Of a stretch of DNA of 43,192 nucleotides, positions 16,890 to 41,294 are shown piece by piece; the first letter of the stretch is position 1, and every line of letters starts with the position of its first letter. The stretch lies in the NCBI GenBank assembly GCA_017933995.1, contig JAGBKI010000045.1, positions 1 through 43,192 of the forward strand. Reading direction: 5' to 3'. Both the position numbers and the translations under genes were made by a program. Under the pieces are notes generated by a model. The model was given only the letters and a program-made list of their open reading frames with translations. It did not search any database and was not told where the DNA came from. The DNA comes from Bacteroidaceae bacterium (lineage in GTDB: Bacteria; Bacteroidota; Bacteroidia; Bacteroidales; Bacteroidaceae).

Positions 16890-16923
16890 AAACTTTTAAC
16901 TTTTACCTTTTAACTATTCACTA
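16890..16923. repeat. 7-bp-period repeat before the DUF3737 start
   Basis: Degenerate heptamers AACTTTT, AACTTTT, ACCTTTT, AACTATT and CACTAAA end 9 bases before ATG 16933. The last two units recur before the obgE and pgeF starts. Confidence 0.8.
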
Positions 16924-16932
16924 AAAAGAGAT

Positions 16933-17787
16933 ATGACTTTGATTGAGAACAAGGAGTACGGCGGCGAGCGTCCGCTGTACTGCCAGCAAGACCTCCACCT
17001 AAAGAACGTCACCATCCACGCCGGCGAGAGCGGCATCAAGGAGTGCAAGAACATCCTTTGCGAGGACTGCACCTTTGAGGGCAAGTACCCGCTGTGGAAC
17101 ACCGACCATTTCGTTGTGCGCCGCTGCAAGTTCGAGGAGACGGCGCGCGCCGCCCTGTGGTACTCGCGCGATCTGGAAATGGCCGACACGCTCGTCGAGG
17201 CGCCCAAGATGTTCCGCGATATGCAGAAACTCTCGCTCACCAACGTGGAACTGCCCAACGCCCTCGAAACGCTGTGGCACTGCCGCGACATACGCCTGAA
17301 GGACTGCAAGGTGAAGAAGGGCGACTACATCATGATGTTCTGCGACGGCATCGAGGTGGACCACTGCCACATTCAGGGCAACTACAGTTTCCAGTACAGC
17401 CGCAACATTGTTATCCGCAACAGCGTGCTCGACACGAAGGACGCTTTTTGGGAGACGGACAACTGCACGGTCTACGATTCCACCATCTCGGGCGAGTTCC
17501 TGGCTTGGAACAGCCGCAACCTGCGCCTTGTGCGCTGCCACATACGCGGTACGCAGCCACTGTGTTACTGTGACGGGCTGGTGCTGGAGGACTGCACTTT
17601 CGACCCCGACAGCGACCTGGCTTTCGAGTACAGCGACGTGCACGCCACGGTGCGCAGCCACATCCACAGCGTGAAGAACCCGCGCCACGGCTCCATCCGT
17701 GCGTTCAGCTACGGCGAAATCATCCTCGACGACAACATCAAAGCGCCCGCCGACTGCACCATCGAACGCCTGCCTTACGACGCATAA
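16933..17787 (+). CDS. DUF3737 right-handed beta-helix protein
   Basis: This 284-residue cytoplasmic protein has no signal peptide. Short Cys/Asp/Asn-rich repeats (CEDCTFEGKYPLWNT, RRCKFEETARAALWYS, KDCKVKKGDYIMMFC and others, about 20-23 residues each) match DUF3737. This is a family of parallel beta-helix proteins of unknown biochemical role. Ladders of aromatic and acidic residues suggest ligand binding along one face of the helix. The gene lies 50 bp after the MATE gene and 27 bp before the MalY-type lyase, so it is probably in that transcript. Confidence 0.82.
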   Translation: MTLIENKEYGGERPLYCQQDLHLKNVTIHAGESGIKECKNILCEDCTFEGKYPLWNTDHFVVRRCKFEETARAALWYSRDLEMADTLVEAPKMFRDMQKLSLTNVELPNALETLWHCRDIRLKDCKVKKGDYIMMFCDGIEVDHCHIQGNYSFQYSRNIVIRNSVLDTKDAFWETDNCTVYDSTISGEFLAWNSRNLRLVRCHIRGTQPLCYCDGLVLEDCTFDPDSDLAFEYSDVHATVRSHIHSVKNPRHGSIRAFSYGEIILDDNIKAPADCTIERLPYDA

Positions 17788-17814
17788 TAACACAACCTGC
17801 AATCCCCAAACGTT

Positions 17815-18984
17815 ATGCCCTACAACTTTGATGAAATGACGCATCGGCGCGGCACAGACTGCGCCAAGTGGGACGAGACCGCCGAGGAGGTTATCCCCCT
17901 CTGGGTGGCCGATATGGACTTCCGCGCCCCGCAGCCCGTCATCGATGCCCTGCGCCGCCGCGTGGAGCATGGCATTTTCGGCTATGCCCACGTGCCGCAA
18001 GCCTATTTTGACGCCGTGTGTTCGTGGTTCCATCGTCGTCACAACTGGACGGTACGTCCCGAGGAAATCATCTACACTACGGGCGTCATCCCTGCGCTGG
18101 CCGCTGCGCTGCGCGCCGTGACACTGCCTGGCGAAAAGGTTCTGTTGCAAACGCCAGTCTACAACTGCTTCTTTTCCAGCCTGCGCAACGCGGGCTGCGA
18201 GGCACTCGACTCACCGCTGCTCTATGGCGCGGACAGCCGCTACACCATCGACTTTGCCGATTTCGAGCGCAAAGCAGCTGATCCGCGCTGCACGGCGTTC
18301 CTGCTCTGCAACCCGCATAACCCAGCTGGGCGTGTCTGGACGGACGACGAACTGCGCCGTCTCGGCGACATCTGCCAGCGCCACGGCGTGCGTGTCATCG
18401 CCGACGAAATCCACTGCGAACTCGTCATGCCTGGCCATACATTCCGCCCGTTCGCCTCGCTTGACGCCCCTTGGGCACGCGAGGCCGTAACGCTCAACTC
18501 GCCCACCAAGAACTTCAACATCGCAGGCTTGCAGGTGGCCAATATCATCACGCCCGACCCGCTGCTGCGCCGTCGCATCGACCGTGCCATCAACCTCCAC
18601 GAGACGTGCGACCTTAACGCTTTCGCCGCCGACGCGCTCATCGCGGCCTACAACGAGAGCGAGAACTGGCTTGTGCAGCTCAACGCCTACCTTTGGGACA
18701 ACTATCGGTACTTGCAGGATTTCGTGGCGCACGAACTGCCGCAATGCCGCCTCACCGTGCTTGAGGGCACTTACCTCGCTTGGCTCGACGTGCGCCCATT
18801 GGGCATCCCCACGCGCCGTATTGAGGCCGCGCTCAAGGCCCGGCAGAAGGTGTGGGTGAACAGCGGCACGCTCTATGGCACAGAGGGATTCCTGCGCATC
18901 AACCTCGCCACGCAGCGTTCTCGCCTCGCCGAAGGACTGCGTCGTATGGCCGAAGGGCTGCGCGAACTCTCGGCACAGGGATAA
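17815..18984 (+). CDS. MalY/PatB-type PLP cystathionine beta-lyase
   Basis: This 389-residue fold-type I PLP enzyme of the MalY/PatB group releases homocysteine, pyruvate and ammonia from cystathionine; some members do other C-S lyase or transaminase chemistry. It has the family N-terminus (YNFDEMTHRRGTDCAKWD, IPLWVADMDF), the cofactor contact region CNPHNPAGRVW, the Asp that contacts the pyridine nitrogen in VIADEIHCEL, and the Schiff-base lysine in LNSPTKNFNIAGLQ. The C-terminal domain has SGTLYGTEGFLRINLA with the carboxylate-binding Arg. It is the last gene of the plus-strand group and ends in a large terminator shared with the convergent GNAT gene. Confidence 0.9.
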   Translation: MPYNFDEMTHRRGTDCAKWDETAEEVIPLWVADMDFRAPQPVIDALRRRVEHGIFGYAHVPQAYFDAVCSWFHRRHNWTVRPEEIIYTTGVIPALAAALRAVTLPGEKVLLQTPVYNCFFSSLRNAGCEALDSPLLYGADSRYTIDFADFERKAADPRCTAFLLCNPHNPAGRVWTDDELRRLGDICQRHGVRVIADEIHCELVMPGHTFRPFASLDAPWAREAVTLNSPTKNFNIAGLQVANIITPDPLLRRRIDRAINLHETCDLNAFAADALIAAYNESENWLVQLNAYLWDNYRYLQDFVAHELPQCRLTVLEGTYLAWLDVRPLGIPTRRIEAALKARQKVWVNSGTLYGTEGFLRINLATQRSRLAEGLRRMAEGLRELSAQG

Positions 18985-19009
18985 GCCCACCCATTTCAGC
19001 CTCCTACAA

Positions 19010-19090
19010 ATTCGCGACCCGTTTGCGCCTTGTCCGTGCGCTTTTTGAGCGCCATACGGAAGGATGCAAACGGGTCGCGAATGTTTTTAT
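19010..19090. terminator. Large bidirectional terminator
   Basis: A 17-bp perfect stem (19010-19026 with 19066-19082; ATTCGCGACCCGTTTGC) encloses a 39-nt insert with its own hairpin (GCGCT/AGCGC). TGTTTTTAT follows. It separates convergent genes. Confidence 0.85.
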
Positions 19091-19113
19091 TCCCCTAAGA
19101 AGTAACGGGATGC

Positions 19114-19629
19114 TTACAGCGCGAGCCTCTTGTAAAAGATTTCAACATCGTCCCAGCCATCGCCAGAAAAGCGATAATGGGGCAGCGTGCCTGCATGGGC
19201 ATAGCCCGCGCGGCGGAAAAGGCCAAGGGCAGCGGCGTTGGTGGCGGCAACGAGGGCGGTGAGCGTGTGGAGGCCGAGACGGCGGCACGCGGTGTCCTCA
19301 AGCAGGCGCAGCGTTTCGAGGGCGTATCCCCTACCCCGCTCCTCCGGGAGCACGGCGACGCCCACCTCGGCGTGGGCGTTGAGCGCATCAATGACCGTCA
19401 GGTCGGCCAGTGCCACGGGCGCGCCGTCGCCGGTGCGCACGGCCACCAGTCGCAACTCGCCTGACGTGAGCGGGTCGGCGGCGGGAGTTTCGAGGTAGCG
19501 CCGCACGTCGTAGCGCGACACGGGGGTGCGCACGGCGGACTGCGCGCTCACGTCGGGCGTGTTCTCCATGGCGTAGACCAGTTCGAGGTCTTCGGGTTCG
19601 AGGGCGCGGAGGCGGAGGGGGGAGGTCAT
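19114..19629 (-). CDS. GNAT-family N-acetyltransferase
   Basis: This 171-residue protein resembles the RimJ/RimL/SpeG group of acetyl-CoA-dependent acetyltransferases. The start RLRALEPEDLELVYAMENTP is the usual first strand and helix. The CoA-binding loop is EVGVAVLPEERGRGYALETL (R/Q-x-x-G-x-G/A pattern), followed by LTALVAATNAAALGLFRRAGY. ATG 19629 is chosen over an adjacent TTG at 19632. The acceptor (protein N-terminus, polyamine or small molecule) is unknown. It is the distal gene after the glycosyltransferase, separated by an inverted repeat. Confidence 0.82.
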   Translation of the reverse strand: MTSPLRLRALEPEDLELVYAMENTPDVSAQSAVRTPVSRYDVRRYLETPAADPLTSGELRLVAVRTGDGAPVALADLTVIDALNAHAEVGVAVLPEERGRGYALETLRLLEDTACRRLGLHTLTALVAATNAAALGLFRRAGYAHAGTLPHYRFSGDGWDDVEIFYKRLAL

Positions 19630-19657
19630 CAATCTTATATATTACTACGTCGTATTT

Positions 19658-19757
19658 AGTAGTTAAGTAGATAGTAGTTAAGCCGAATGTCAAAACAAGC
19701 GGCAAGCAAGGCGTTATCGTAACGGCTTAACTACTTCACTACTTATCTACTTTGTTA
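19658..19757. repeat. Inverted pair of short tandem repeats, GT2-GNAT junction
   Basis: The left arm (19658-19684) and right arm (19723-19757) are inverted and share AGTAGTTAAGCCG exactly. The right arm is four 8-bp units (CTTAACTA, CTTCACTA, CTTATCTA, CTTTGTTA). The core of about 38 bp is not palindromic. Confidence 0.85.
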
Positions 19758-19772
19758 CTTCCGACACTTCTG

Positions 19773-20954
19773 TTATAGCCCTCCCGCCCCGTGCGTCACG
19801 ATGCGCCGCAGCGCGGGGTCGAAGAGGGCGAGGCGCACACGCCCAGCGGCTTTCTTGAGGTTGCGGATGATGGCGGAGGGGGCGCAGTCGGCGGTGTCGA
19901 AGACGGCAAGTTCGCAATCATCCAGCGCACCGGCGGGCAGCGTGTCGCCGTCACGGAGCGTGGTGACATCGGCAGGCTGTAGGCGCAGTCCGTCGGCCTC
20001 GGCCACGGCGGCGGCCTCCAGGAAGTGCGTGCCGACGAAACGGGCGGGAACGGGCTGCGGGGCATTGCCACTACGCGACAGGCGGTAGCGCAGGTCGGCC
20101 CACCTGCCATGCAGCCAGCCCTTGGCCGCAGTGGCCCAGATGGCGGCGGCGATGAACGGGCGCAGCCAGAAGGCGTAGCGTGGGTAGTGCTTGCGCAGGA
20201 AGATGAGCATCGCGCCGTAGAAGACGTGCGCGTAGCGGTAGGTGGTCTTGTTGGTGCTCTCGCCCTTGAAATGCACGAGGTCGGCTGGCACGTACCAATT
20301 GGTCTTGCCCTCCTGCATCAGGCGGTAGGACAGGTCGATGTCCTCGCCGTACATGAAGTAGTCGGGGTCGAACCAGTCGCCGCGCCCGTCATTCCGCACC
20401 ATCATGCACGCGCCGCTCACCACTTCGGTCTCGTGGGGCGCGTCGTTGGGCAGGTAGCCCATATAGTAGTGGCCGAAGCGGCGCGAGCGGGGATAGAGCG
20501 CGGTCAGCCCGGCCATCTTGCAGAACGCCGTCCAGGGCGTGGGCAGCCCGCGACGCGACTCGGGCGCGAAAGTGCCGTCGTCGTTCGTCATGCTGACGCC
20601 CACCGCCCCCACGTCGGGATGGGCGTCGGCAAAGGCCAGCAGGCGGGCGGGCAGGTGCTCGGAGGGCAGCGTGTCGGGGTTGAGGAAGAGGATGTAGTCG
20701 CCCTTGGCCCGGCGCGCGGCGAGGTTGTTGGCGCGCCCGAAACCGAGGTTCTCCTGCTGCGGCAGGTGGTGCACCTGCGGGAAGTCCTTGGCGGGGAACA
20801 ACGCTGCGAGACGCTCCGCCGAACCGTCGGTGCTGGCGTTGTCGACGACAAACACCTCCAGCCCGCCCGCCACCTCGGCACGGAGCAGGGCGCGCACGGC
20901 CACGGCGGTGAAGGCCGCCACGTTGTAGTTCACGATGATGACGCTCAGTCGCAC
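19773..20954 (-). CDS. Family 2 glycosyltransferase
   Basis: This 393-residue GT-A enzyme has SVIIVNYNV, VFVVDNASTDGS (nucleotide site), the DxD-like LFLNPDTL, ESRRGLPTPW and the acceptor/base region FMYGEDIDLSYR. It resembles rhamnosyl- or other sugar transferases that extend cell-surface glycans. A hydrophobic segment near 270 may hold it at the membrane. The C-terminal 100 residues are less conserved. The start is GTG 20954, overlapping the stop of the preceding membrane-protein gene by 10 bp, so translation is probably coupled. Confidence 0.87.
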   Translation of the reverse strand: MRLSVIIVNYNVAAFTAVAVRALLRAEVAGGLEVFVVDNASTDGSAERLAALFPAKDFPQVHHLPQQENLGFGRANNLAARRAKGDYILFLNPDTLPSEHLPARLLAFADAHPDVGAVGVSMTNDDGTFAPESRRGLPTPWTAFCKMAGLTALYPRSRRFGHYYMGYLPNDAPHETEVVSGACMMVRNDGRGDWFDPDYFMYGEDIDLSYRLMQEGKTNWYVPADLVHFKGESTNKTTYRYAHVFYGAMLIFLRKHYPRYAFWLRPFIAAAIWATAAKGWLHGRWADLRYRLSRSGNAPQPVPARFVGTHFLEAAAVAEADGLRLQPADVTTLRDGDTLPAGALDDCELAVFDTADCAPSAIIRNLKKAAGRVRLALFDPALRRIVTHGAGGL

Positions 20955-21382
20955 GGCTCGTCGTCTTTATGGGTGAGGGTGTCGCACTCGCGCTGCGTGG
21001 GCACGCAGAACAGCGCGGCGATGATGGAAATCATCAGGGCGTAGTGGGCAGTCTGGCTTTGCAGCGTGGCGTAGTATACAAAGAGTTCCACGAACACGCA
21101 GAGGCCGACGACGGCGGTGCGCACCGCCGCCCACCTGCCGTAGGCCGCCTCGCCGCGCGCCTTGAGGTCGGCGGCGGGACGGGCGAAGCGCATCAAACGC
21201 AGCGCGCCCCACGTGCCGCCCATACACAGCGCGGCGCACACGACGTCGAGAACGTACTGCACCTGCGGCTGCCCGCCGAGGTAGCCCGTGGGCAGCACGC
21301 CCTTCTCGCACAGCGCGAAGAAGGCCGCCGCGCCCACCGCCGTCAGCGCAAACGCGAGTTGGTTATATCGGAGATTTGACAT
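20945..21382 (-). CDS. Small multi-pass membrane protein, unknown function
   Basis: I do not recognise a family. The 145-residue product has about four hydrophobic segments (LAFALTAVGAAAFFALC; VQYVLDVVCAALCMGGTW; VRTAVVGLCVFVELFVYYA; ALMISIIAALFCV), a short basic loop between the second and third, and an acidic tail. The ATG at 21382 follows recR by 65 bp. The 3' end overlaps the glycosyltransferase start by 10 bp, so the two products may work together. Confidence 0.7.
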   Translation of the reverse strand: MSNLRYNQLAFALTAVGAAAFFALCEKGVLPTGYLGGQPQVQYVLDVVCAALCMGGTWGALRLMRFARPAADLKARGEAAYGRWAAVRTAVVGLCVFVELFVYYATLQSQTAHYALMISIIAALFCVPTQRECDTLTHKDDEPCD

Positions 21383-21393
21383 TGGCGTTTTCT

Positions 21394-21430
21394 ATAAACT
21401 CTAAGAAATCTAAAGTCTCTAAGAACTCTA
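21394..21430. repeat. 9-bp-period tandem repeat upstream of the membrane-protein gene
   Basis: Four degenerate units of the type AACTCTAAG lie between recR and the next gene, a few bases before its start codon on the minus strand. No inverted partner is visible. Confidence 0.7.
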
Positions 21431-21447
21431 AGAGTCCTCCCAGCCCC

Positions 21448-22085: not shown

Positions 22086-22240
22086 TGCAAAGATACTGCA
22101 AGGCGAGCGCAGAGAAAAGGGAGCGTAGCGGAATTTTCTCTGCCGAGCCGCAGCGTATCTTCGCTTAAAGGCAAAGATACTGCAAGGCGAGCGCAGAGAA
22201 AAGGGAGCGTAGCGGAATTTTCTCTGCCGAGCCGCAGCGC
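22086..22240. repeat. Tandem hairpin repeat carrying recR promoters
   Basis: Two copies, 84 bp apart, of a block beginning GCAAAGATACTGCAAGGCGA, each with the hairpin GCAGAGAAAA/TTTTCTCTGC. On the minus strand each copy ends in TATCTTTG (22088-22095 and 22172-22179), a perfect -7 box. The nearer box is 32 bp from the recR start codon. Confidence 0.85.
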
Positions 22241-22397
22241 GGGGTACATTAGACGACAGGCAGGTTGTGAGACGCTGGAAGCGTCTCCCCCTCTGTAATC
22301 GCGGGTTCGCGAAGTGTAACGACGCGAACCTGCGACCAGCGGAGACGGTATTACGGACGCCTTTGCGTCCCCCACGACGGGAACGGGCAACCCAAAA

Positions 22398-22506
22398 CGC
22401 CCGTGGGGCACGCTTCCAGCGTGCATTCAACTGCTGGCACCTGCCGCAGGTGCGCTCCATTACATTCCGCGTACCTGCGGTTACAGAAAGGAAGACGCTT
22501 TCAGCA
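22398..22506. repeat. Hairpin-rich repeat module, copy 2
   Basis: Same order and orientation of hairpins as 15068-15179. The final hairpin (GACGCTTTCAGC) has lost its 3' half. Confidence 0.85.
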
Positions 22507-22588: not shown

Positions 22589-22696
22589 CCACACAAATCT
22601 GCAAACTAAGGCTTAATTTGTACAAACTAAGGCTTAATTTCGCCAAACTTAGGCTTAGTTTGTATAAACTTAGGCTTAATTTACAGATTTGCGTGG
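22589..22696. repeat. Array of four near-palindromic 20-22 bp units
   Basis: Units are of the type AAACTAAGGCTTAATTTGTA. The array is bracketed by inverted 13-bp arms (CCACACAAATCTG and CAGATTTGCGTGG, 12 of 13 complementary). A related four-unit array lies at 41452-41549. Confidence 0.85.
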
Positions 22697-22925: not shown

Positions 22926-22998
22926 CGCGGAGTGGAGCAGTTGGCAGCTCGCCAGGCTCATAACCTTGAGGTAACCGGTTCGATTCCGGTCGCCGCAA
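22926..22998 (+). tRNA. Initiator tRNA-fMet (CAT)
   Basis: It starts CGCGGAG with the C1-A72 mismatch of initiators, the D arm has the A11-U24 pair, and the anticodon loop is CTCATAA. The T arm is ACCGG TTCGATT CCGGT; discriminator A; CCA is not encoded. Two further mismatches are present: A6-G67 in the acceptor stem and C28-U42 in the anticodon stem. It lies just upstream of a terminator. Confidence 0.88.
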
Positions 22999-24195: not shown

Positions 24196-24741
24196 ATGGA
24201 AACCGTCAGAATCCTCGACCGCAGCTTCCGCCTCTACCTCAGCGAAGCCGAAATCCAGCAGCGCGTCCGCGAAGTCGCCGCGCAAATCAGCCGCGACCTT
24301 GAAGGCAAGAACCCCTTGCTGCTCGGTGTGCTAAACGGTGCTTTCGTTTTCGCCGCCGACCTTGTGCGCGCCGTCACCATCCCCGCCGAGATTTCCTTCA
24401 TCAAGGTGGCCTCCTACGAAGGCACGTCATCGACCGGCACCGTGTCCAACCTCATCGGACTTAACGAAAGTCTGGAAGGCCGCACCGTGGTCATCGTCGA
24501 GGACATCATCGACAGCGGCCTTTCCATGACCCACCTCGTCGAGGCCGTCAAGGCCATGAACCCCGCCGACGTGCGCATCTGCTCCCTGCTCGTCAAGCCC
24601 GGCAACCTCAAGGTGGAACTCGATGTGCCCTACTGCTGTTTCCGCATCCCCAATGACTTCATCGTGGGCTACGGTCTCGACTACGACCGCTACGGGCGTG
24701 GCCTGCGCGATATATACGTCGTTACGGAAGACGGCCATTGA
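24196..24741 (+). CDS. hpt: Hypoxanthine phosphoribosyltransferase
   Basis: This purine-salvage enzyme converts hypoxanthine or guanine plus PRPP to IMP or GMP. The 181-residue protein begins at ATG 24196 (METVRILDRSFRLYLSEAEI). It has LLGVLNGAFVFAADLVR, the SYEG loop, the PRPP motif VVIVEDIIDSGLSM and the base-contact region CCFRIPNDFIVGYGLDY. It is the first gene of the hpt-adk-obgE-pgeF group. The stop codon lies at the start of an inverted tandem-repeat pair. Confidence 0.94.
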   Translation: METVRILDRSFRLYLSEAEIQQRVREVAAQISRDLEGKNPLLLGVLNGAFVFAADLVRAVTIPAEISFIKVASYEGTSSTGTVSNLIGLNESLEGRTVVIVEDIIDSGLSMTHLVEAVKAMNPADVRICSLLVKPGNLKVELDVPYCCFRIPNDFIVGYGLDYDRYGRGLRDIYVVTEDGH

Positions 24742-24838
24742 ACATTGACCATAGACCATTTACCATTGGCTACGCGCCGTAACCGCACCGTAACCGCGCC
24801 AGACGGCAATGGTCAATGGTCAATGTTCAATGGTCAAT
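24742..24838. repeat. Inverted pair of heptamer repeats, hpt-adk junction
   Basis: The left arm (about 24741-24768, ATTGACCAT-type) is the complement of the right arm, four AATGGTC-type heptamers at 24808-24835. A 38-bp GC-rich core separates them. The left arm begins at the hpt stop. Confidence 0.88.
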
Positions 24839-24861
24839 CCCCCAACCCCGCTCACACAACC

Positions 24862-24893
24862 AACTGATTAACTTACCAACCGATAAACTCCCT
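24862..24893. repeat. 8-bp-period repeat ending at the adk start codon
   Basis: Four units AACTGATT, AACTTACC, AACCGATA and AACTCCCT run directly into ATG 24894. No Shine-Dalgarno sequence is present. Confidence 0.75.
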
Positions 24894-25465: not shown

Positions 25466-25617
25466 CAGTGGCGGAATTACCTATATTTGTTCAATTTTGA
25501 TAACAATTTTGAAGAATTTCTGCGCGAAGCGCATCAAGAGTAGTCGCCTACGGCGAGAAATTTTACAAAATTAAATTCAAAATTATTCAAAATACGCATT
25601 ATTGGGCTAATTCCGCC
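25466..25617. repeat. Nested inverted repeat, adk-obgE junction
   Basis: The outer arms are GGCGGAATTA (25470-25479) and TAATTCCGCC (25608-25617). The inner AT-rich arms (about 25488-25518 and 25562-25593) repeat CAATTTTGA/TTCAAAATT. The core holds two perfect small hairpins, TGCGC/GCGCA (25521-25533) and TCGCC/GGCGA (25544-25556). Confidence 0.85.
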
Positions 25618-25647: not shown

Positions 25648-26823
25648 ATGGCCTCCAACTTCATCGACTACGTTAAAATCTTCTGCCGCTCGGGCAAGGG
25701 AGGGCGCGGCTCCATGCACCTCCACCGCGCCAAGTACAACCCCAACGGCGGACCCGACGGCGGCGACGGCGGACGCGGAGGCAACGTATACCTGCGCGCC
25801 AACCGCAACTACTGGACCCTGCTCCACCTGCGCTACGACCGCCACGTCTTCGCTGGCAACGGCGGCGCAGGCGGCAAAGACCGCTGCCACGGCAAGGACG
25901 GCGAGGACCGCTACATCGACGTGCCCTGCGGCACCGTGGCCTACGATGCCGAGACGGGACGCTACCTCTGCGACGTCACCCGCGACGGCGAGACCGTGAT
26001 GTTGCTCAAGGGCGGGCGAGGCGGCCTCGGCAACTGGCAGTTCCGTTCGGCCACCAACCAGACGCCGCGCTATGCCCAGCCCGGCGAACCGATGCAGGAG
26101 AAAACCGTCGTCCTGGAACTCAAAATGCTGGCCGACGTGGGTCTTGTGGGCTTCCCCAACGCGGGAAAGAGCACACTCGTTTCCGCCGTGTCGGCGGCGC
26201 GCCCCAAGGTGGCCGACTATCCCTTTACCACCCTCGAACCCAGTGTCGGCGTCGTGGCCTACCGCGACAACCGCTCGTTCGTGATGGCCGACATTCCTGG
26301 CATCATCGAGGGCGCCGCCGAGGGGCGCGGCCTCGGACTGCGTTTCCTGCGCCACATCGAGCGCAACGCCGCCCTCCTCTTCCTCGTCCCCGCCGACAGC
26401 GACGACATAGCCGAGAGCTACCGCGTGCTGCTTTCCGAACTGGAACGCTACAACCCCGCCATGCTCCGCAAGCGCCGCGTGCTGGCCGTCAGCAAGTGCG
26501 ACCTCATCGACGAGGAACTGGAACAGATGCTCGCCGAGACGCTGCCCCGCGACATCCCCACCGTTTTCATCTCCGCCGTCACGGGCCAGGGCATCGACCG
26601 CTTGAAGGACATCCTTTGGGAAAACCTCAATGCCGACGACGCGCCCGTCGCCGCCGAGGCCGACGAGACCTTTGTCCATCGCGACCGCGAGGCCGCCCTG
26701 CTCGCCTCCGACTTCGCCGACTGGGACGACGATGAACTCCCCGCCCCATCCGACGATGACGATGACACCGACGAGGAGGAAGAACTTGAGGAGTACGATT
26801 GGGAAGATTTAGTTAAAAGTTAA
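25648..26823 (+). CDS. obgE: Obg GTPase, 50S ribosome assembly
   Basis: This essential GTPase of late 50S assembly and stress control has 391 residues. The glycine-rich Obg domain is at 1-158 ([14 protein letters not shown]). In the G domain, G1 is GFPNAGKST, the switch I threonine lies in [12 protein letters not shown]3 is DIPGIIEGA, and G4 is TKCD-like SKCD. The C-terminal 60 residues are highly acidic ([16 protein letters not shown]) and replace the OCT domain. The last codons and stop lie inside the left arm of the next repeat. ATG 25648 follows the element ATTATTCACTAAAAGGAT. Confidence 0.95.
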
Positions 26824-26946
26824 AAGATAAGAGTGAAAAGTGGAGAATGTGGTGGCAGCGATTCAAGGCGTAGTCTTTCTTGACAAAGGCAAAGGCTAAA
26901 CGTAACTACACTTTTCACTTTTATCTTTTAATTATTCACTATTAAC
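26811..26946. repeat. Inverted pair of heptamer repeats, obgE-pgeF junction
   Basis: The left arm is AGTTAAA, AGTTAAA, AGATAAG, AGTGAAA from 26811, including the obgE stop codon. The right arm is CACTTTT, CACTTTT, ATCTTTT, AATTATT, CACTATT, ending 3 bases before the pgeF ATG. Arm cores are complementary at about 22 of 24 positions around a core of about 65 bp. Confidence 0.88.
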
Positions 26947-27702
26947 ATGCTCCTCCCCCTCCACCCCGATGTCACAGCCTTTGCCACGGAGCGCGGTGGC
27001 GGCGTCAGCACGGGCGAGTACGCCTCGATGAACGTGTGCCACTACAACGGCGACGCGCCCGAGGCCGTGGCCGAAAACCGCCGCCGCCTCGCCGAGCGTC
27101 TGGGCATACCCGCTGCCAACATCGTGCTGCCGCGCCAGACGCATTCCACGCGCGTGGCCCTTGTCGACGCACCGCCAATGGTCAATGGTCAATGGTCAAC
27201 GGTCAATGCGGTGGACGCCCTCATCACGCAAACGCCCGGCCTGTGCATCGGTGTGTCGACCGCCGACTGCATCCCTGTTTTGCTCTACGACCCGCGCACG
27301 CGCACCGCCGCCGCTGTCCACGCGGGCTGGCGTGGCACACTGGGGCGCATCGTGCGGCGCACCGTCGAGGCAATGGACGCGCTCTGCGGCGTGCGCCCCG
27401 AAGACCTCCGCGCCGCCATCGGGCCTGGCATCAGCCGCGCGGCCTACGAGGTGGGCGACGAACTGCCACAAGCCTTTGCCGACGCGGGCTTTCCCATAGA
27501 CCAAATCACCAGCCGCTCTGGCGGACGCTGGCACCTCAACCTTCCCCTTGCCAACCGCCTGGAACTGCGCGCCGCCGGAGTTCCCGACGCGCACATCAGC
27601 GACTGCGGCCTCTGCACCTACACGCACGCCGACCGCTTCTTTTCCGCCCGCCGCCAGGGCATACGCTCCGGGCGCGTCTATACAGCCGTCGTCATCCGTT
27701 AA
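26947..27702 (+). CDS. pgeF: Purine nucleoside phosphorylase PgeF (laccase-domain, YfiH)
   Basis: These proteins, once annotated as polyphenol oxidases, have been shown to bind metal and cleave purine nucleosides, with an editing role in peptidoglycan synthesis. The 251-residue protein has the metal triad H66 (PRQTHSTRV), C108 (STADCIPVLL) and H125 (AVHAGWRGTL). Residues about 77-86 (MVNGQWSTVN) come from four AATGGTC heptamers and enlarge a loop between H66 and the DALITQ strand. It ends the hpt-adk-obgE group and shares a terminator with the convergent glucosaminidase. Confidence 0.9.
   Translation: MLLPLHPDVTAFATERGGGVSTGEYASMNVCHYNGDAPEAVAENRRRLAERLGIPAANIVLPRQTHSTRVALVDAPPMVNGQWSTVNAVDALITQTPGLCIGVSTADCIPVLLYDPRTRTAAAVHAGWRGTLGRIVRRTVEAMDALCGVRPEDLRAAIGPGISRAAYEVGDELPQAFADAGFPIDQITSRSGGRWHLNLPLANRLELRAAGVPDAHISDCGLCTYTHADRFFSARRQGIRSGRVYTAVVIR
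27177..27204. repeat. Four AATGGTC heptamers inside pgeF
   Basis: Three exact units and one variant (AACGGTC) in 28 bp, read in frame. Same unit and copy number as in the GH84 gene and the hpt-adk junction. Confidence 0.95.
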
Positions 27703-32230: not shown

Positions 32231-32412
32231 AAGTAAAAAATAAAAAGTAAAAAGTAAAAAATTATATACGGTGTCAAGCGCGGTTTTGAGCCATTGGGTG
32301 GCAAAGGGGCTGCAAGCCAACAGTATTTGGCGGATGTTGGCGACGCCCCTTTTGCTGTTGAGGCGCGCAAAGTTACTAAACTTTTACTTATTACTTTTTA
32401 ATTATTAATTAT
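32231..32412. repeat. Inverted pair of heptamer repeats, cytochrome-Rid junction
   Basis: The left arm (32232-32266) is AGTAAAA-type heptamers; the right arm (32378-32412) is AACTTTT, ACTTATT, ACTTTTT, AATTATT, AATTATT. The cytochrome stop codon (32405-32407) is inside the right arm. The core contains AGCCATTGGGTGGCAAA, also found at the SnoaL junction. Confidence 0.85.
32368..32375 (-). promoter_or_regulatory. -7 box in the junction core
   Basis: Minus-strand TAACTTTG, about 145 bp before the Rid-like start codon and next to the right repeat arm. Confidence 0.4.
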
Positions 32413-34361: not shown

Positions 34362-34391
34362 TGTGGTGTTGTTATTTGCGGGGTTGGGGAA

Positions 34392-34472
34392 ACTGGGAAT
34401 ACTGGGAATTCTGGGAATACTGGGAATACTGGGAATACTGGGAATACTGGAAACACTAGGAACATTAGGAAC
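34392..34472. repeat. Nine 9-bp tandem units upstream of the porin O/P gene
   Basis: Units run from ACTGGGAAT (34392) through exact and near copies to ATTAGGAAC (ending 34472). They lie 31 bp from the start codon on the minus strand, in the leader of the gene. No inverted partner. Confidence 0.92.
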
Positions 34473-34491
34473 ACTAGTGCCACCAGACTTT

Positions 34492-35925: not shown

Positions 35926-35967
35926 AAGTCGTTGAAAGATGTCGTGTCTATGTTCGGATAAAGAAAA

Positions 35968-36104
35968 AGGGGAGTAAAGGGGAGTCAGGCGGAGTTAGAG
36001 GGAGTTATCGCGCCGTTACTGTCAGCCGCACTTTCGGCGGCCGGGTGTATCGGCCCTTTAACTCCACTATAACTCCTCCTAACTCCCTCTAACTCCTAAG
36101 GGGG
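35968..36104. repeat. Inverted pair of 10-bp repeats, imelysin-DUF1111 junction
   Basis: The left arm has four 10-bp units (GGGGAGTAAA-type to GGAGTTAGAG); the right arm has four units of TAACTCCCTC type. The arms are complementary around a GC-rich core of about 50 bp. The right arm ends 1 bp from the imelysin stop codon. Confidence 0.88.
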
Positions 36105-36105
36105 A

Positions 36106-37293
36106 TTACTTGATGGTCCTCGCCTTGCCGTCCTTGAAGATGAGGAACTCAAGGGTGTGGTAGCCGCGCAGGCTCTGGGCCTCGGCGATGGCGGAAGCGC
36201 GTTCGTTCTCTACGCCGTCCTCTTCCTCCTCGTATTCGCCGCTCCAGTCGAGGGCGGAGTAGTCACCATTGTTCATAATGGCCACGATGCCGTCCTGGTC
36301 GAGAGGCCAGCTGTCCATGTTGGGGTCAAGACCCTTGTTGGCCACGGGGCCAAAGAGGAAAGCCTCGCTCGTCTCCCACGGTTCGCGGGCGGCAAGCCAA
36401 GCGTCGGCGCAAGCCTCGAAACCAGCGTTGCTGGGGGCCTTGGTAAAGTTGCTGACGGCGGTGAGCAGGGCGCGATTCTTCGCAACAAGGTCGCGGTAGG
36501 TGGGCAGCACGACGGCGTTCACGTAGTTCTCCACCACTGCGTCGAGGGCCTCGTCATTGTCGGCGTAGGCTTCGAGCAGGCGGGGCTTGAGCTGCTTGCT
36601 GATGAAGTCCTCCAGGTCGGCGCAGGCGTCCATAGCGGCCTCGGTCTCGGGGCACACGATGTTGTTGCGTAGCGGGGCGGGGATGGCCTGGATGGCGTCG
36701 TAGGCGGCCTGGATGTAAGCCTTGGCCTGCGCGTCGAGCTGGGCGTCGAACTGCTGCACGGCGTTGGAGATGGAGTTCTGCGCCACCTGTCCGTTGCGCG
36801 AGCCGTTGTAGGCGTTCTGGATGGAGCGGATGTTGTTGCTGTAGTCGTCGATGGAGTGCCAGCTGTACCAGCTCTCCACGGCATAGAGCGCGGCGGTCTT
36901 GTCGCCACCGAGGAAGAGGTCGTAGGGGTCGCCAATCTTGGCCGAACCCACCTCGTTGGCGATGTCGGCACAGCCGTCAAGGATTTCCTCCACGCAGTCT
37001 GAGGCGGACTGGTAGCCCTGGTTGCCGTTGTGGGCAATGAACTGGGCTGCATAACTCTGGCCGCCTTCGTAGCTCGTCTCCCAGTCCTTGAGCAAGGTCT
37101 CGGAGTCGTCCACAAGTTTCTGGGCTACGACGCCCATGTAGGTGGCCCACTTCTGCACGTTCTCGGTCGTGCAGTCGATGTCTGCTGCTGCGACATCGTC
37201 GGGCCCCTTCTTGTCATCGTCGTCGCTGCAAGCTGTGAACGACAGTGTCAAGCCGAGGCCGAAGAGAGCCGCAAGCAAAAGTTTTTTGTTCAT
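36106..37293 (-). CDS. Imelysin-family lipoprotein, permuted form
   Basis: Imelysin-like proteins are envelope helical-bundle proteins linked to iron uptake. This 395-residue protein has a lipoprotein signal (LSFTAC) followed by an Asp-rich segment (SDDDDKK). The body is helical, and the GxHxxE motif appears as GYHTLE about 13 residues from the C-terminus. In canonical imelysins it lies well upstream; the C-terminal position matches the circularly permuted fold known from a Bacteroides protein. It lies 36 bp downstream of the first porin and upstream of the DUF1111 gene. Confidence 0.88.
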   Translation of the reverse strand: MNKKLLLAALFGLGLTLSFTACSDDDDKKGPDDVAAADIDCTTENVQKWATYMGVVAQKLVDDSETLLKDWETSYEGGQSYAAQFIAHNGNQGYQSASDCVEEILDGCADIANEVGSAKIGDPYDLFLGGDKTAALYAVESWYSWHSIDDYSNNIRSIQNAYNGSRNGQVAQNSISNAVQQFDAQLDAQAKAYIQAAYDAIQAIPAPLRNNIVCPETEAAMDACADLEDFISKQLKPRLLEAYADNDEALDAVVENYVNAVVLPTYRDLVAKNRALLTAVSNFTKAPSNAGFEACADAWLAAREPWETSEAFLFGPVANKGLDPNMDSWPLDQDGIVAIMNNGDYSALDWSGEYEEEEDGVENERASAIAEAQSLRGYHTLEFLIFKDGKARTIK

Positions 37294-37329
37294 AATAGAA
37301 AATGATGTGAATTAAAAAAGGTGTTGTTT

Positions 37330-38688
37330 TTACTTCTTAAAGAACCACCCGACGTAAGCCACGCCGAGGCTCCACTCGTTCTCGCTGTTGTACTGACCCT
37401 TGCCGAACATCTTGGAGGTGCCGATCTGGCGCGTAGTGTAGTCGGCCTTGACGACGAGGTTAGGCAGCGGGCGCCAGTTCAGGCCCACTTTCCAGAGGCT
37501 CACCTGGCAGCGCGCGTCCATATCGGACGTGGCCGACTGGCCTTTCTCCTGCGGGTTGTAGTAGTTGTAGTGCGCGAAGGGGTAGATGACCGGCATCTTG
37601 TCCGTCCAGCCCAGCGCGCTGCACACCTCGTGCAGGTTCACGCCCACCTCGGCGCTCCATGTCACGGCGCGCTTGGCCACGTAGGGCGTGCGGTTGTAGG
37701 GCGAGGCCGAACTGTAGCGGCGGTTCACACCGCTGATAGCGTCGGCGTTGTGGACGTTGCCGCTGAGGTAGTTGGCGCGGGCAGTGACGAAGCGGCCCGT
37801 GTACTGCCCGTCGAGGCTGTAGATGCAGACGGGCAGTTTGCCGTAAGCCTTGTACGTCACCAGTTTGTCGGCGTTGCGACCCGCGTCGGCGCACCAGTAC
37901 ACGCTGCCGCCGATGCGCAGGTTGGGCAGCCCCACCCAGTCAAGGCGCAGGATGTAGGCCGGGCGCGTGAAGTTGTCGGCCTCGAAGTAGCCCTGCTTGC
38001 CTTTCTGCACCCAGTTGTACTTGTCGAAGCCATTGGGGTTGGGGCCGGCCACGACCATCGCCTCGTAGTCGAACGTGGCGGTGCGGCTGCCCACACGCCC
38101 GAAGAGCGACAGACCCGTCTCGTGCCACGTCGAGGGGATGATGGTGGTCTCGCCCTCCGTGCGGCGCGTGCCGAAGAAGAAGATGGGTTCGTGGTGGCTG
38201 TTGGTCAGGCCGACGGGCAGCACCATGTGGCCCGCGCGGACGTTGAGCCAGGGCGCGTGGCTGTAGGTGATGTGGAACTGCTCCAGCGCCACCTCGCCGC
38301 CTTTCTCCACCTCGGTCTCGTACTCGCCGTTCTCGCTGCCCGAGCCCTGCTCCATCTCGTATTCGATGCCCGTACCGCCTGCCTCGAACTCGATTTCGGC
38401 ACCGAGCGTCCAGCGGCGCGAGAACTTGTAGTCCATCGCGATGACGAAGCGCGGGATTTCAATGGTGGAGTGGTTCACGCGGCTGCTGCCGTCCGAGGTG
38501 CCCGTCCAGCGGTTCAGGCCGTAGTCCTTCCAGGAGGCCACCGCCTCGCCGTAGCCGCCCAGGCGGAACTTGTAGTCGTCGGCGGGCGCCAGCGTGTCGC
38601 CCGGCACCGTCGTGGCACGCAGCGACGTGGGCATAAGCGAGGCCGACGCCAGCAGGGCGAGGGCCAGTGAGCGCGAAAGTATCTTCAT
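37330..38688 (-). CDS. Outer-membrane porin-like protein, first gene of the imelysin locus
   Basis: This 452-residue protein has a signal peptide (MKILSRSLALALLASASLMP). It shows many alternating barrel strands with GGYGEAVASW, HSTIEIPRFVIAMDYKF, LNVRAGHMVLPVG and the aromatic end VAYVGWFFKK. It is an uncharacterised Bacteroidetes porin type without TonB features. An acidic loop (EMEQGSGSENGEYETEVEKGGE) may be exposed. It is the promoter-proximal gene of the locus, with a -7 box and an upstream palindrome shared with the divergent hemerythrin-LuxR regulator. Confidence 0.78.
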   Translation of the reverse strand: MKILSRSLALALLASASLMPTSLRATTVPGDTLAPADDYKFRLGGYGEAVASWKDYGLNRWTGTSDGSSRVNHSTIEIPRFVIAMDYKFSRRWTLGAEIEFEAGGTGIEYEMEQGSGSENGEYETEVEKGGEVALEQFHITYSHAPWLNVRAGHMVLPVGLTNSHHEPIFFFGTRRTEGETTIIPSTWHETGLSLFGRVGSRTATFDYEAMVVAGPNPNGFDKYNWVQKGKQGYFEADNFTRPAYILRLDWVGLPNLRIGGSVYWCADAGRNADKLVTYKAYGKLPVCIYSLDGQYTGRFVTARANYLSGNVHNADAISGVNRRYSSASPYNRTPYVAKRAVTWSAEVGVNLHEVCSALGWTDKMPVIYPFAHYNYYNPQEKGQSATSDMDARCQVSLWKVGLNWRPLPNLVVKADYTTRQIGTSKMFGKGQYNSENEWSLGVAYVGWFFKK

Positions 38689-38741
38689 CGTATGGGGTTG
38701 TTTTTACGGGGTTATCAGGTATATTTTTGGATTTTCGGGTG

Positions 38742-38749
38742 CAAAATTA
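38742..38749 (-). promoter_or_regulatory. -7 box of the porin-imelysin operon
   Basis: Minus-strand TAATTTTG, 54 bp before the start codon. No TTTG -33 element is present, which fits an activator-dependent promoter. Confidence 0.5.
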
Positions 38750-38772
38750 CAAGTGCCGTCGGCGTGCGGCAA

Positions 38773-38788
38773 TACCCAAATTAGGGTA
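38773..38788. promoter_or_regulatory. Candidate operator palindrome
   Basis: TACCC and GGGTA are separated by AAATTA. The minus-strand word TACCCTAAT recurs on the plus strand at 38873-38881, just before the regulator start codon. The palindrome centre is about 44 bases upstream of the predicted porin transcription start. Confidence 0.5.
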
Positions 38789-38848
38789 AAAAGCCGCCCG
38801 CCGTGGTTATAAACGCCCCCGCGTGCCGCGTTTCACGCAAGGATTTTG

Positions 38849-38856
38849 TATTTTTG
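38849..38856 (+). promoter_or_regulatory. -7 box of the hemerythrin-LuxR gene
   Basis: TATTTTTG matches TAnnTTTG; transcription would start about 20 bases before the start codon, upstream of the second TACCCTAAT. Confidence 0.5.
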
Positions 38857-38881
38857 CGGTGATAAACTCCCCTACCCTAAT

Positions 38882-39829
38882 ATGATTTCCCCCAAGATAA
38901 AAGCCACCGACCGCATGTGCGACATCCTCACCGAGGACTACCAGTTGCTCCTGATGCTGGGCCGCTTCGGCCTGCCGCTGGGCTTCGGCGAGAAAACCGT
39001 GCAGGAAGTCTGCCAGGAGGGCGGCGTCGACACCGACACGTTCCTGGCCGTGGCCAACTTCAACACCGGCGGCGCCGACGCCGCGCAGCCTTTCCGCGAT
39101 AGGCTCAGCGTGCGCACCCTCATCGCCTACCTCGAAAACACCCACACCTATTTCCTTGACTTCCTGCTGCCGCAGATACGCCGCAAACTGCTCGCCGCCA
39201 TCGACTGCGGCGGCGAGAGCAAGGTGTCGTTCCTCATCCTGCGCTTCTTCGACGAATACCAGGCCGAAGTGCGCCGCCACATGGCCTACGAGAACGACAA
39301 GACCTTCCCCTACGTCCGCGCGCTGCTCGAAGGCCGGCGGCAGGAGGGCTACAGCATCGAGGTCTACTCGCGCGGCCACGACGCCGTGGAGCGCAAACTC
39401 GGCGAACTGAAGAACATCATCATCAAGTACTACCAGGGCGGCGGCGACGCCAACCAGTTGCTCTCCGCGCTGTTCGACATCTTCAACTGCGAGGCCGACC
39501 TCCACCAGCACGAGCAGATGGAAGACCACCTATTTATCCCCGCCGTCGAACTGCTCGAAGAGAAAGTGGCCGTCGGCGCGGGCGAGGCCGTCCCCGACAC
39601 TCCGCAGGCCAAGGAGGAGACGCTCTCGGAGCGCGAGAAGGACATCGTGCGCTGCATCGTGCGCGGGATGACCAACAAGGAAGTGGCCGAGGAGCTGTTC
39701 ATCTCCGTGAACACCGTCCTGACCCACCGCAAGAACATCGCCCGCAAACTCAGCATCCACTCCGTCGCCGGCCTCACCATCTACGCCATCGCCGGCGGCC
39801 TCGTCAACCTCGACGAAGTGCGCCTCTGA
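38882..39829 (+). CDS. Hemerythrin/RIC-domain LuxR-type regulator
   Basis: This 315-residue protein starts at ATG 38882. Residues 1-75 resemble the ScdA/RIC N-terminal region, but the usual CCGG cysteines are replaced (LGFGEKT). Residues 80-225 form a hemerythrin-type four-helix bundle. Likely di-iron ligands are H88, H133, E137, H166, H210 and E214, with spacing close to that of YtfE/RIC. Residues 245-295 are a LuxR-type helix-turn-helix (LSEREKDIVRCIVRGMTNKEVAEELFISVNTV). It probably senses oxygen, nitric oxide or iron status through the di-iron centre and controls the divergent porin-imelysin genes and itself. Confidence 0.82.
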   Translation: MISPKIKATDRMCDILTEDYQLLLMLGRFGLPLGFGEKTVQEVCQEGGVDTDTFLAVANFNTGGADAAQPFRDRLSVRTLIAYLENTHTYFLDFLLPQIRRKLLAAIDCGGESKVSFLILRFFDEYQAEVRRHMAYENDKTFPYVRALLEGRRQEGYSIEVYSRGHDAVERKLGELKNIIIKYYQGGGDANQLLSALFDIFNCEADLHQHEQMEDHLFIPAVELLEEKVAVGAGEAVPDTPQAKEETLSEREKDIVRCIVRGMTNKEVAEELFISVNTVLTHRKNIARKLSIHSVAGLTIYAIAGGLVNLDEVRL

Positions 39830-39880
39830 ACCCACGCCGCGCGCCCCCAAAACCTTTATTTGCGCGCCCCTTAATCAAGT

Positions 39881-40675
39881 TTACGAGTTCTTGAGTTGTT
39901 GCATCTCGTAGATTTGCTTCATCAGCAGTTTCTTGGGGATGAAGTGCGTCAGGTTGGTGAAGACTTTCTGCATCAGGGTGAGGCCGCCGGTGACGGTCAT
40001 CTTGCCGCGCATCATGCCCTCGAAGCCAGCCTTGGCCACGATGGCGGGCGAAACCATGTGCTCAAAGAGTTTGGTGTTCTGCATGTCGCTGGCACGGGTG
40101 AAACCGCTATCCATCGCGCCGGGCAGCAGCGTCGTGACGGTGACGCCGGTGTCCTTGGCCTCGTACCATACGGCGTTGCTCAGCGACGTGACGTAGGCCT
40201 TCGAGGCGTAGTAGACGGCCTGGAGCGGGCCGGGCATTTCGCCTGCGGGTGAGGAGACGTTGAGGATGCGCCCGTGGCCACGACTGATCATTTCGGGCAG
40301 GTAGAGTTTGGTGAGTTTCGTCAGGGCCACGATGTCCACCTGTATCATCATCAGTTCCTGCTCCATAGGCCGCTCGGCGAAGGTGCCGCGCCCGCCGAAG
40401 CCCGCGTTGTTGATGAGGTACTCGACCTCGATGCCCAGCCGCTTCACCTCCTCGTAGACTTCCTCGGGCGCCGTGGGCTGGGAGAGGTCTTTGCCAATGA
40501 CGGTCACGGCGGTGCCGTATTGCTTCTCAAGTTCTTCCTTAAGGCTTTCCATCTTGCCGACGCTGCGCGCCACGAGCACGAGGTCGTCGCCGTTTTGCGC
40601 GTGCAGGCGGGCCAGTTCCACGCCCAGCCCGCTCGAAGCACCCGTGATGAGTGCGGTTTTCTGTGTCTTTGTCAT
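39881..40675 (-). CDS. Short-chain dehydrogenase/reductase
   Basis: This 264-residue classical SDR has the cofactor motif TGASSGLG (about 12-19), basic residues after the second strand (ARSVGK) favouring NADPH, NNAGFG, and the catalytic Ser in NVSSPAG with YYASK (Tyr and Lys). The C-terminal region (TLMQKVFTNLTHFIPKKLLM) is hydrophobic and typical of the DltE-like group; it may contact membranes. The substrate is unknown. It starts 14 bp after the SnoaL-like gene and is probably co-transcribed with it. Confidence 0.88.
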   Translation of the reverse strand: MTKTQKTALITGASSGLGVELARLHAQNGDDLVLVARSVGKMESLKEELEKQYGTAVTVIGKDLSQPTAPEEVYEEVKRLGIEVEYLINNAGFGGRGTFAERPMEQELMMIQVDIVALTKLTKLYLPEMISRGHGRILNVSSPAGEMPGPLQAVYYASKAYVTSLSNAVWYEAKDTGVTVTTLLPGAMDSGFTRASDMQNTKLFEHMVSPAIVAKAGFEGMMRGKMTVTGGLTLMQKVFTNLTHFIPKKLLMKQIYEMQQLKNS

Positions 40676-40689
40676 AAGTTGGTGCGGTT

Positions 40690-41142
40690 TTATCGGTTTT
40701 CCACAAAGTCCACGAGCAGGATGCGCTCGGCGAAGAGCCAGCGTCCGCCGACCTTGCGGAAGGTGTCCTCGTAGCGCATGTAGGCTATCATCAGACGCTG
40801 GCCGCCGTCCTCGGTGTAGTTGAGGTGGTGGGCTATGCAGTATGCCTGCCCCTGCGCCTCGGTGTCGGAGAGCTGGCGGAGGGTGTGCTGACCCACGAAG
40901 TGCATCGTGCGGTTGTAGGTGTTGAGGTTCTCGAAGACGGGCCGCAGGCTCTCGCGTCCGTCGAGGGCGTAGGAGGGTTCGGCGGCGTGGCTGTCCATGT
41001 AGACCACGAAGTGCGTGTCGTCGGTGAAGAGGCTCATCTGCCCCTCGCAGTCGCGGCGGTCGGCGCAGTAGGCGTAGGCATCCACCAGGGCGCGTATCTC
41101 GCGGCGGTCCTGCTCTTGCTGCAACAGTTGCTCAGGTGTCAT
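40690..41142 (-). CDS. SnoaL-like (NTF2-fold) protein
   Basis: This 150-residue cytoplasmic protein has the cone-shaped NTF2/SnoaL fold pattern: an N-terminal helix pair (REIRALVDAYAYCADRRDCEGQMSLF), TDDTHFVV, a middle helix (ESLRPVFENLNTYNRTMHFVGQH) and strands ending RYEDTFRKVGGRWLFAERILLVDF. Members act as isomerases, cyclases, dehydratases or non-catalytic binding proteins. Pairing with an SDR is common for such genes and suggests a small hydrophobic substrate. An inverted repeat and a minus-strand -7 box (41204-41211, TATTTTTG) precede it. Confidence 0.82.
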   Translation of the reverse strand: MTPEQLLQQEQDRREIRALVDAYAYCADRRDCEGQMSLFTDDTHFVVYMDSHAAEPSYALDGRESLRPVFENLNTYNRTMHFVGQHTLRQLSDTEAQGQAYCIAHHLNYTEDGGQRLMIAYMRYEDTFRKVGGRWLFAERILLVDFVENR

Positions 41143-41149
41143 GGTTTGG

Positions 41150-41294
41150 GAGTTTATGAGTTAGTAAGTTTTTGAGTTATTAAGTTGGCAAGCCATTGGG
41201 CGGCAAAAATACGGCAAAACGTGCTATATTGCGCTGCGGTTCGTGCCAAAGGGTTTGCATTTCGCACCTACCCTGCACAAACTCATAAACTTAT
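41150..41294. repeat. Inverted repeat pair upstream of the SnoaL-like gene
   Basis: The left arm is five 8-bp units (AGTTTATG, AGTTAGTA, AGTTTTTG, AGTTATTA, AGTTGGCA) starting 7 bp from the start codon. The right arm is AACTCATAAACT (41279-41290). The core holds AGCCATTGGGCGGCAAA and the -7 box. Confidence 0.78.
41204..41211 (-). promoter_or_regulatory. -7 box of the SnoaL-SDR pair
   Basis: Minus-strand TATTTTTG in the core of the inverted repeat, 62 bp before the start codon. Confidence 0.5.

Follow-up and report, generated by a model that had tools for sequence, protein, structure and literature searches.

Inverted arrays of short tandem repeats in operon junctions of a Bacteroidaceae genome: probable gene-less members of a mobile-element class resembling the intervening sequences of rRNA

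In this study, we analysed the inverted arrays of short tandem repeats found in gene junctions of a 43,192-nucleotide contig of a Bacteroidaceae bacterium (assembly GCA_017933995.1, contig JAGBKI010000045.1; the whole contig is referred to here as the window). We propose, with a probability of roughly 0.7, that they derive from mobile elements resembling the intervening sequences (IVSs) of rRNA, of which they would be short copies without the gene, located in operon junctions. Several features can be read directly from the DNA, namely the inverted periodic arms, the dispersal of families, a gene inside the arms of some copies, and gene-less copies cognate to these in five families. The comparison of genomes likewise reveals, at the level of sequence, that the element is absent at some orthologous junctions of congeners, that two Nostoc plasmids carry reciprocal insertions, that units are gained and lost and that the encoded protein is correlated with the unit.

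According to the model that we favour, a full copy would consist of an array of 7–10-bp units, in many cases followed by a subterminal motif, a single reading frame of the PF05635/TIGR02436 (S23, or 23S rRNA-intervening-sequence) family of small four-helix-bundle proteins, and the array in inverted orientation. A gene-less copy would retain the arms, together with the subterminal motifs, on either side of a short core. The encoded protein may recognise its own unit and participate in the spread of the element or in the copying of its arms, and slippage may alter arm length. RNase III would presumably cut the hairpin in the transcript, as it does for the IVSs of 23S rRNA, and because of this cut an insertion between co-transcribed genes may be tolerated.

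Results and Discussion

The window (contig C40) belongs to an assembly of 2.48 Mb in 66 contigs with an estimated completeness of 84%, which the relatives of its Obg protein assign to Bacteroidaceae / Prevotella-like Bacteroidales. A search of this genome for PF05635 gave seven matches, five of them above the cut-off and none on the window, so that the seven window junctions contain no PF05635 gene; NCBIfam assigned TIGR02436 to all seven proteins, and XCC0516 (2gsc) is a solved structure among the relatives (E 2.8e-19). Short-unit arrays adjoin all seven genes, and in six of the seven the arms on the two sides are complementary to each other (cross score of at least 12). The units are, locus by locus, GTAGTTAA, AGGTTTAAG, GGAGTTAGAA, GACCATT, AATTAGG and two 9-bp units, the latter adjoining the two TIGR04258 genes. 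At the atpB–atpE junction, for example, the 576-bp gap contains a four-helix-bundle gene within AGGTTTAAG arms. Both neighbours are co-directional with the PF05635 gene at 7/7 loci according to a trained gene model (2/6 with crude gene calls), compared with 172 of 264 genes of the own-genome sample, which comprised the window and 20 further stretches (407,843 bases, 239 intergenic regions), with genes called by a purpose-built crude model. Among 123 ordinary genes of this sample, complementary flanking arms were seen at four; the top arm score of these genes (41) belongs to one at L022:3048-3848, which lies between two elements with 9-bp units. As a separate observation, one four-helix-bundle gene (L238) stands ahead of the start of a frame read as HsdR-like from its translation, at a restriction-modification junction.

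The ends of 38 listed structures of the same genome, J3 and J7 of the window not being among them, were compared with those of the gene-bearing elements. Nineteen of the 38 each have a single gene-bearing element whose end they match with a score of 40–70, the next best being at most 27, and they fall into five unit families; these scores include the arms, and the aligned pieces extend into subterminal sequence. Three window junctions are in this group. J1 (19658..19757, minus strand) has GTAGTTAA-family arms around a core, lies between two minus-strand genes and is a gene-less copy whose end matches the gene-bearing element L232 with a score of 52 (next 18). Five more copies of it are present in the genome (74–86% identity across 101–117 bp), and the PF05635 gene at C19:14087-14392 is flanked on both sides by J1-type matches. 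J2 (24735..24838, plus strand), with GACCATT/AATGGTC arms, leads from an hpt-like gene, whose stop codon is supplied by the first repeat unit, to adk and matches L235 with a score of 58 (next 23). J6 (35966..36104, minus strand), with 10-bp arms of GGGAGTTAGA and a minus-strand gene on each side, matches L234 with a score of 51 (next 25). The first-pass annotation of the window had held that every junction uses a unit of its own and that one dispersed repeat is therefore not involved; this was wrong, J1, J2 and J6 being members of dispersed families. Its suggestion that a single process generates locus-specific units is supported because the units group in families, five of which have, in the same genome, a PF05635 gene within the same arms.

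The other junctions vary in clarity. Direct reading and Tandem Repeats Finder clearly show periodic arms (7, 8 or 10 bp), in inverted orientation on the two sides of a core, at J1, J2, J4, J5 and J6; such arms had been claimed for all seven junctions. J4 (26811..26946, plus strand) has AGTTAAA/AACTTTT arms between obg and yfiH, the first of which contains the obg stop codon, and J5 (32231..32412, minus strand) has AAGTAAA/ACTTATT arms and a minus-strand gene on each side. J3 (25466..25617, plus strand), at the adk–obg junction, consists largely of a single long, imperfect hairpin whose outer ends are TGGCGGAATTA and TAATTCCGCCA, and its periodicity is weak; J7 (41150..41294, minus strand), with 8-bp units (GAGTTTAT) and a weak inverted partner, is the weakest of the seven and only marginal. 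Hairpin strength was expressed as an RNA-fold z-score against 200 shuffles for J1–J4, J6 and J7. The values were −5.4 for J1, −7.7 for J2, −6.7 for J4 and −9.6 for J6, and −3.4 for J3 (2/200 shuffles as good) and −2.2 for J7 (8/200). A second copy of J3 (88% identity over 108 bp) is found in L018, where J1-type arms bound a stretch that contains the J3-like hairpin.

Across the 239 intergenic regions, each shuffled ten times, a scan gave a clear excess. Tandem arrays with a score of at least 14 are present in 41 regions and in none of the shuffles, with periods of 7 (13 regions), 8 (13) and 9 (10) dominating; inverted arms with a score of at least 12 and a loop of at least 20, which include other repeat classes, are present in 68 regions (shuffled mean 1.2, maximum 4), and tandem scores of at least 13 together with inverted scores of at least 12 in 26 regions, again with none in the shuffles. 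The units in this sample include AATGGTC, AACTTTT, AATTCCT, ACAATAA, GTAGTTAA, AACTGATT, AACCTAAG, AAACCTCTT and AACTCCCCTT, among others. Arrays are found at 44/183 co-directional and 5/56 other junctions, and in junctions of 80–250 bp at 34/93 compared with 0/22 (Fisher p 0.0002); above 250 bp there was no co-directional bias (5/39 versus 5/27), nor was there one for inverted arms of any kind (50/183 versus 18/56), while periodic-armed inverted structures are present at 31/183 co-directional and 3/56 other junctions. The arrays often overlap a stop codon and end shortly before a start codon, as had been noted for the window. Stop-side arrays are G-rich in 26/41 cases, compared with 13/47 untied array-free junctions, and start-side arrays are C-rich in 31/34, compared with 33/47. 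The start-side polarity (C>G) was considered as a special sign and rejected, since it is the usual direction without arrays too; only the stop-side excess of G stands out.

The strong predicted folds, the co-directional bias at 80–250 bp and the abutment of arrays on stops and starts would also be expected of selected RNA hairpins that insulate the translation or decay of operon genes, with the arms kept for pairing in the mRNA, as the annotation had suggested. The predicted hairpins stood up to analysis. Selection for them is less likely: orthologous junctions of congeners often lack the element, and variants of the unit in one arm are not mirrored in the other beyond chance (23 elements, one with p ≤0.05, combined p 0.99, in a test of low power). 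The same units also occur within coding sequence, and families with such arms have a gene inside them. We therefore regard insulator hairpins as an unlikely explanation.

The comparison with congeners covered junctions of the atp and obg clusters (six window proteins, including adenylate kinase, Obg and a YfiH-type protein, were named through Pfam, and the hpt and atp gene names were read off translations without a family search). At atpA–atpG, our genome has AACTTTT arms in a gap of 159 bp, compared with 9 bp in G012 (AtpA 96% identical), 16 bp in G004 and 18 bp in G013; in G019 it is 89 bp and holds a different hairpin. The atpB–atpE gap measures 45 bp in G012, 83 bp in G019 and 60 bp in G004, compared with the 576 bp of the gene-bearing copy. 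Between hpt and adk, 152 bp in our genome compare with 12 bp in G019, and G012 has AATGGTC arms of its own there; at the obg–yfiH junction no element was found in G012 or G019. Three junctions of the obg cluster were compared across as many as 100 loci of Bacteroidales; arrays scoring at least 12 are present in 7/76, 6/81 and 3/50 cases and their units vary. G015 and G017 are closely related, their flanks being 90.8% identical on average, and a short-unit array is present at 1 of 21 junctions, and in G017 only. A 25-mer of AATGGTC was found in 11/151 family genomes and 4/30 genera; the distribution of AACTTTT by the same means (4/151 family genomes) was discarded because the reversed control also matched several genomes.

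Reciprocal insertions were seen in two Nostoc plasmids (L300 and L307), whose flanking blocks are 90–99.7% identical. Each has a four-helix-bundle element with repeat arms where the other is empty, and the empty sites, a 3-bp gap and a stop–start overlap, lie exactly between stop and start codons. One of the two target sites has a possible 3-bp duplication (ATG) and the other is without a clear one. Turnover of units is seen between Trichormus and Scytonema plasmids (97.0% identical), where the left arms differ by 14 bp, that is two heptamers, and in the atpA–atpG element common to G023 and G024, where the gaps are 117 and 138 bp. At this junction (G023:C86, L189; G024:C27, L188), 90 of 92 bases outside the arms agree and the flanking coding DNA is only about 80% identical.

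Variation in unit number between relatives, together with the dominance of periods 7–9, would fit ordinary simple-sequence repeats that arise when the polymerase slips, without any mobile element; that the polymerase favours 7 bp was put forward by Mrazek et al. (2007), according to PMC4679880. Such slippage would leave unexplained that the arms are paired in inverted orientation, that subterminal sequence is common to different loci and that whole gene-bearing elements occupy precise sites in some relatives and are missing from them in others, whole-element insertions having been partly seen in the Nostoc plasmids. As the sole origin of the structures it is therefore very unlikely.

The association of PF05635 genes with inverted arrays extends to other genomes. 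The family was found in 48/101 family, 116/148 phylum and 27/41 genus genomes searched. Cross-complementary arms flank the gene at 23/30 loci of the family (own locus L232 counted), at 11/27 loci of other Bacteroidota, at 13/18 congener loci and at 19/26 plasmid loci (13/18 and 6/8 from two queries, for which 18/28 and 8/25 records were analysed), compared in every set with none in one shuffle each. The family and phylum sets leave out L279 and L282, where the motif is absent; in the genus set, 7/18 loci without the motif were analysed by coordinates, and one of the counted loci, L333, has non-periodic arms. The plasmid loci are mostly from Cyanobacteriota, with one or a few each from Pseudomonadota, Gemmatimonadota, Spirochaetota, Chloroflexota and Bacteroidota. 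The Nostoc locus L300 fails the arm test because its right arm reaches into the end of the gene, and a broken copy on a plasmid of Monoglobus (Bacillota; L317) fails it too. Both neighbours are co-directional at 24/27 family and 19/23 phylum loci, both counts resting on crude gene calls, and at 18/24 annotated plasmid loci. As to the neighbours themselves, the broken Monoglobus copy sits between annotated hsdS and hsdR, and on cyanobacterial plasmids four-helix-bundle genes are found at junctions of annotated cas genes, namely cas10|cmr3-family (L302) and cas6|cas4 (L304 and L310). In 34 congeners, sampled at 3.4 to 24.6 kb per genome, arrays were detected in 8/22 genomes with PF05635 and 0/12 without (Fisher p 0.03); one of the latter, G192, has a weaker array with a score of 10, under the cut.

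At the 43 of 62 loci that have arms, arm similarity tracks protein similarity (Spearman 0.29, 0/2000 permutations), and the correlation holds for proteins below 0.6 similarity (0/1000 permutations). This correlation and the proximity of arrays to start codons would also suit a non-mobile regulatory pair of hairpin and four-helix-bundle protein, with the protein bound to its unit in the mRNA and controlling the neighbouring genes. Such a pair is at odds with the differing sites among congeners, the reciprocal insertions and the neighbouring genes, which, read by eye, appear functionally unrelated, and we consider it decidedly unlikely.

A number of observations weigh against a mobile-element origin of the window structures. 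Half of the structures compared (19/38, J4 and J5 included) have no gene-bearing match in the same genome, with scores of at most 29 where shuffles reach 30; J4 scores 26 (its shuffle 19, shuffle maximum 30) and J5 scores 19 (shuffle 24). The protein–arm correlation is weaker below 0.5 similarity (p 0.016), and the most similar arms belong to the nearest protein in just 8/43 cases. Outside the family the association is weaker, with nine of the 11 positive phylum loci having a tandem score of at least 9, and at 6/24 annotated plasmid loci at least one neighbour is oriented oppositely to the gene. The family, phylum and genus loci are best-scoring or listed ones rather than all matches, some plasmid loci are closely related to one another, and the ordinary-gene control was drawn from our genome only. 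Finally, we observed no movement of elements, no clear target duplication and no transposase for the elements, and there was no RVT_1 match in the 84%-complete assembly. As regards the two junctions without a cognate, units resembling those of J4 and J5 surround, by eye, PF05635 genes of the congeners G010 and G024, a J5-like unit being seen at L334 (G010) and L338 (G024).

The closest known system is the 23S rRNA IVS, which has been described as a selfish element whose S23 gene is enclosed by stem-forming inverted repeats (PMC4990558). In one IVS, tandem heptamers precede the S23 gene in a strain-variable copy number; excision is by RNase III, and S23/IVP proteins are described in the same source as being without known function (PMC4990558). 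The structures reported here share with IVSs the terminal inverted repeats that form a predicted stem, and gene-bearing copies elsewhere in the genome share the PF05635-type frame, whereas the window copies lie between protein genes rather than inside a 23S rRNA gene, most copies are gene-less, and the arms are arrays of many different units; excision by RNase III would apply here by analogy. Avd of diversity-generating retroelements has been described as homologous to PF05635 (PMC10053308), and 3/7 of the proteins are weakly similar to NCBIfam Avd, below the cut-off; no RVT_1 was found in the 84%-complete assembly, template and variable repeats not having been sought. A reverse transcriptase as the mover was accordingly rejected.

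Similarities with heptamer repeats of other bacteria are also apparent. GGGNATC heptamers of Xanthomonas and Nostoc are intergenic, prefer aligned genes and have the G-rich strand after stops and the opposite strand before starts (PMC4692102), a placement similar to that found here. They have been discussed as G-quadruplex formers that are generally not associated with mobile elements, their role being called open, and the sections consulted do not mention a gene linked to them (PMC4692102). By contrast, AACTTTT, AATGGTC, GTAGTTAA and AATTAGG have no GGG, though the 10-bp GGGAGTTAGA does. The TAACTGA repeats of Beggiatoaceae, Cyanobacteria and five Bacteroidetes are likewise intergenic direct heptamers near starts with a patchy distribution, and have been proposed as regulator binding sites (PMC4679880). 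They are, however, a single unit and nearly all direct, with one inverted case in the genome described there (PMC4679880), in contrast to the many units and inverted pairs of the present arrays.

The structures also share a feature of miniature inverted-repeat transposable elements (MITEs), in that they are short, dispersed copies that lack a gene and end in inverted repeats. The ends of a MITE are shared with a transposase element; here they are shared with four-helix-bundle elements, whose protein is no known transposase. The BrickBuilt MITE of Porphyromonas gingivalis, a host of the same order, is an intergenic mobile element with tandem repeats, but its 23-bp unit is internal (PMC4596501), whereas the 7–10-bp units here form inverted arms. 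Short dispersed palindromes would also be expected of repetitive extragenic palindromic elements (REP/REPIN) moved by a Y1 transposase (RAYT), and five Y1_Tnp matches above the cut-off are present in the genome. In a coarse scan, only one of the five Y1 loci (L160) has an array, its neighbour there being a four-helix-bundle gene, and the Y1 gene on C61 is flanked by a different repeat (GACGCTGAAAGCGTC...); there is thus no cognate Y1 gene flanked by the arrays. Y1/RAYT was for these reasons rejected as the mover, and we give a REPIN-type origin hardly any chance.

More broadly, it is possible, though we put this forward tentatively and think it somewhat less probable than not, that a single class of mobile elements, with ends made of inverted unit arrays matched to the encoded protein, has as its coding part the S23/IVP genes found in Bacteroidota, Cyanobacteriota and further phyla, with the protein recognising and perhaps helping to write the unit. 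The heptamers of cyanobacteria and Xanthomonas and the rRNA IVSs would then be gene-less or rRNA-located members of this class, which would have no recognised transposase or polymerase of its own. Among the open-licence papers of PubMed Central listed by our searches, none ties PF05635 genes in general to flanking arrays. The data suggest an origin for the seven-base repeats of many bacteria that is testable via this element family. The function of S23/IVP proteins and the role of heptamer repeats would thus become joined questions about one protein, one unit and one hairpin; this would account for operon junctions in such genomes that are padded with different-looking repeats, and cautions that each such hairpin need not be a conserved regulatory RNA.

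The window also contains one-armed arrays, which are present where the annotation had placed them. An AACTTTT array (16890..16923, plus strand) precedes a start codon, and an 8-bp array (24859..24893, plus strand) has J2 upstream and the adk start downstream. On the minus strand are a AGTTAATC array (15014..15045), a 9-bp AACTCTAAG array (21394..21436) and a 9-bp GGGAATACT array of about ten units (34387..34477). Two AATGGTC arrays lie on the plus strand, one close to the end of a long reading frame (10428..10458) and one within the yfiH coding sequence, in a loop of variable length (27176..27208). The latter was considered as a clean insertion and rejected, as the length of the loop varies in six relatives, the two closest of which have a loop shorter by 4 residues.

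Other repeats were also noticed in the window. A near-palindromic 21-bp unit (CAAACTAAGGCTTAATTTGTA) that is dispersed through the genome forms arrays at 22602-22682 and 41454-41535, and congeners have other units of about 21 bp, for example in G011. A REPIN-like repeat (GACGCTGGAAGCGTC...CTGTAACCGCGGGTTCGC) at about 15075-15190 and at 22255-22500 resembles the copies that flank the Y1 transposase gene of C61 (L159). Two adjacent near-identical segments (GATACTGCAAGGCGAGCGCAGAGAAAAGGGAGCGTAGCGG...) occupy 22090-22240, upstream of the tRNA-Met at 22926.

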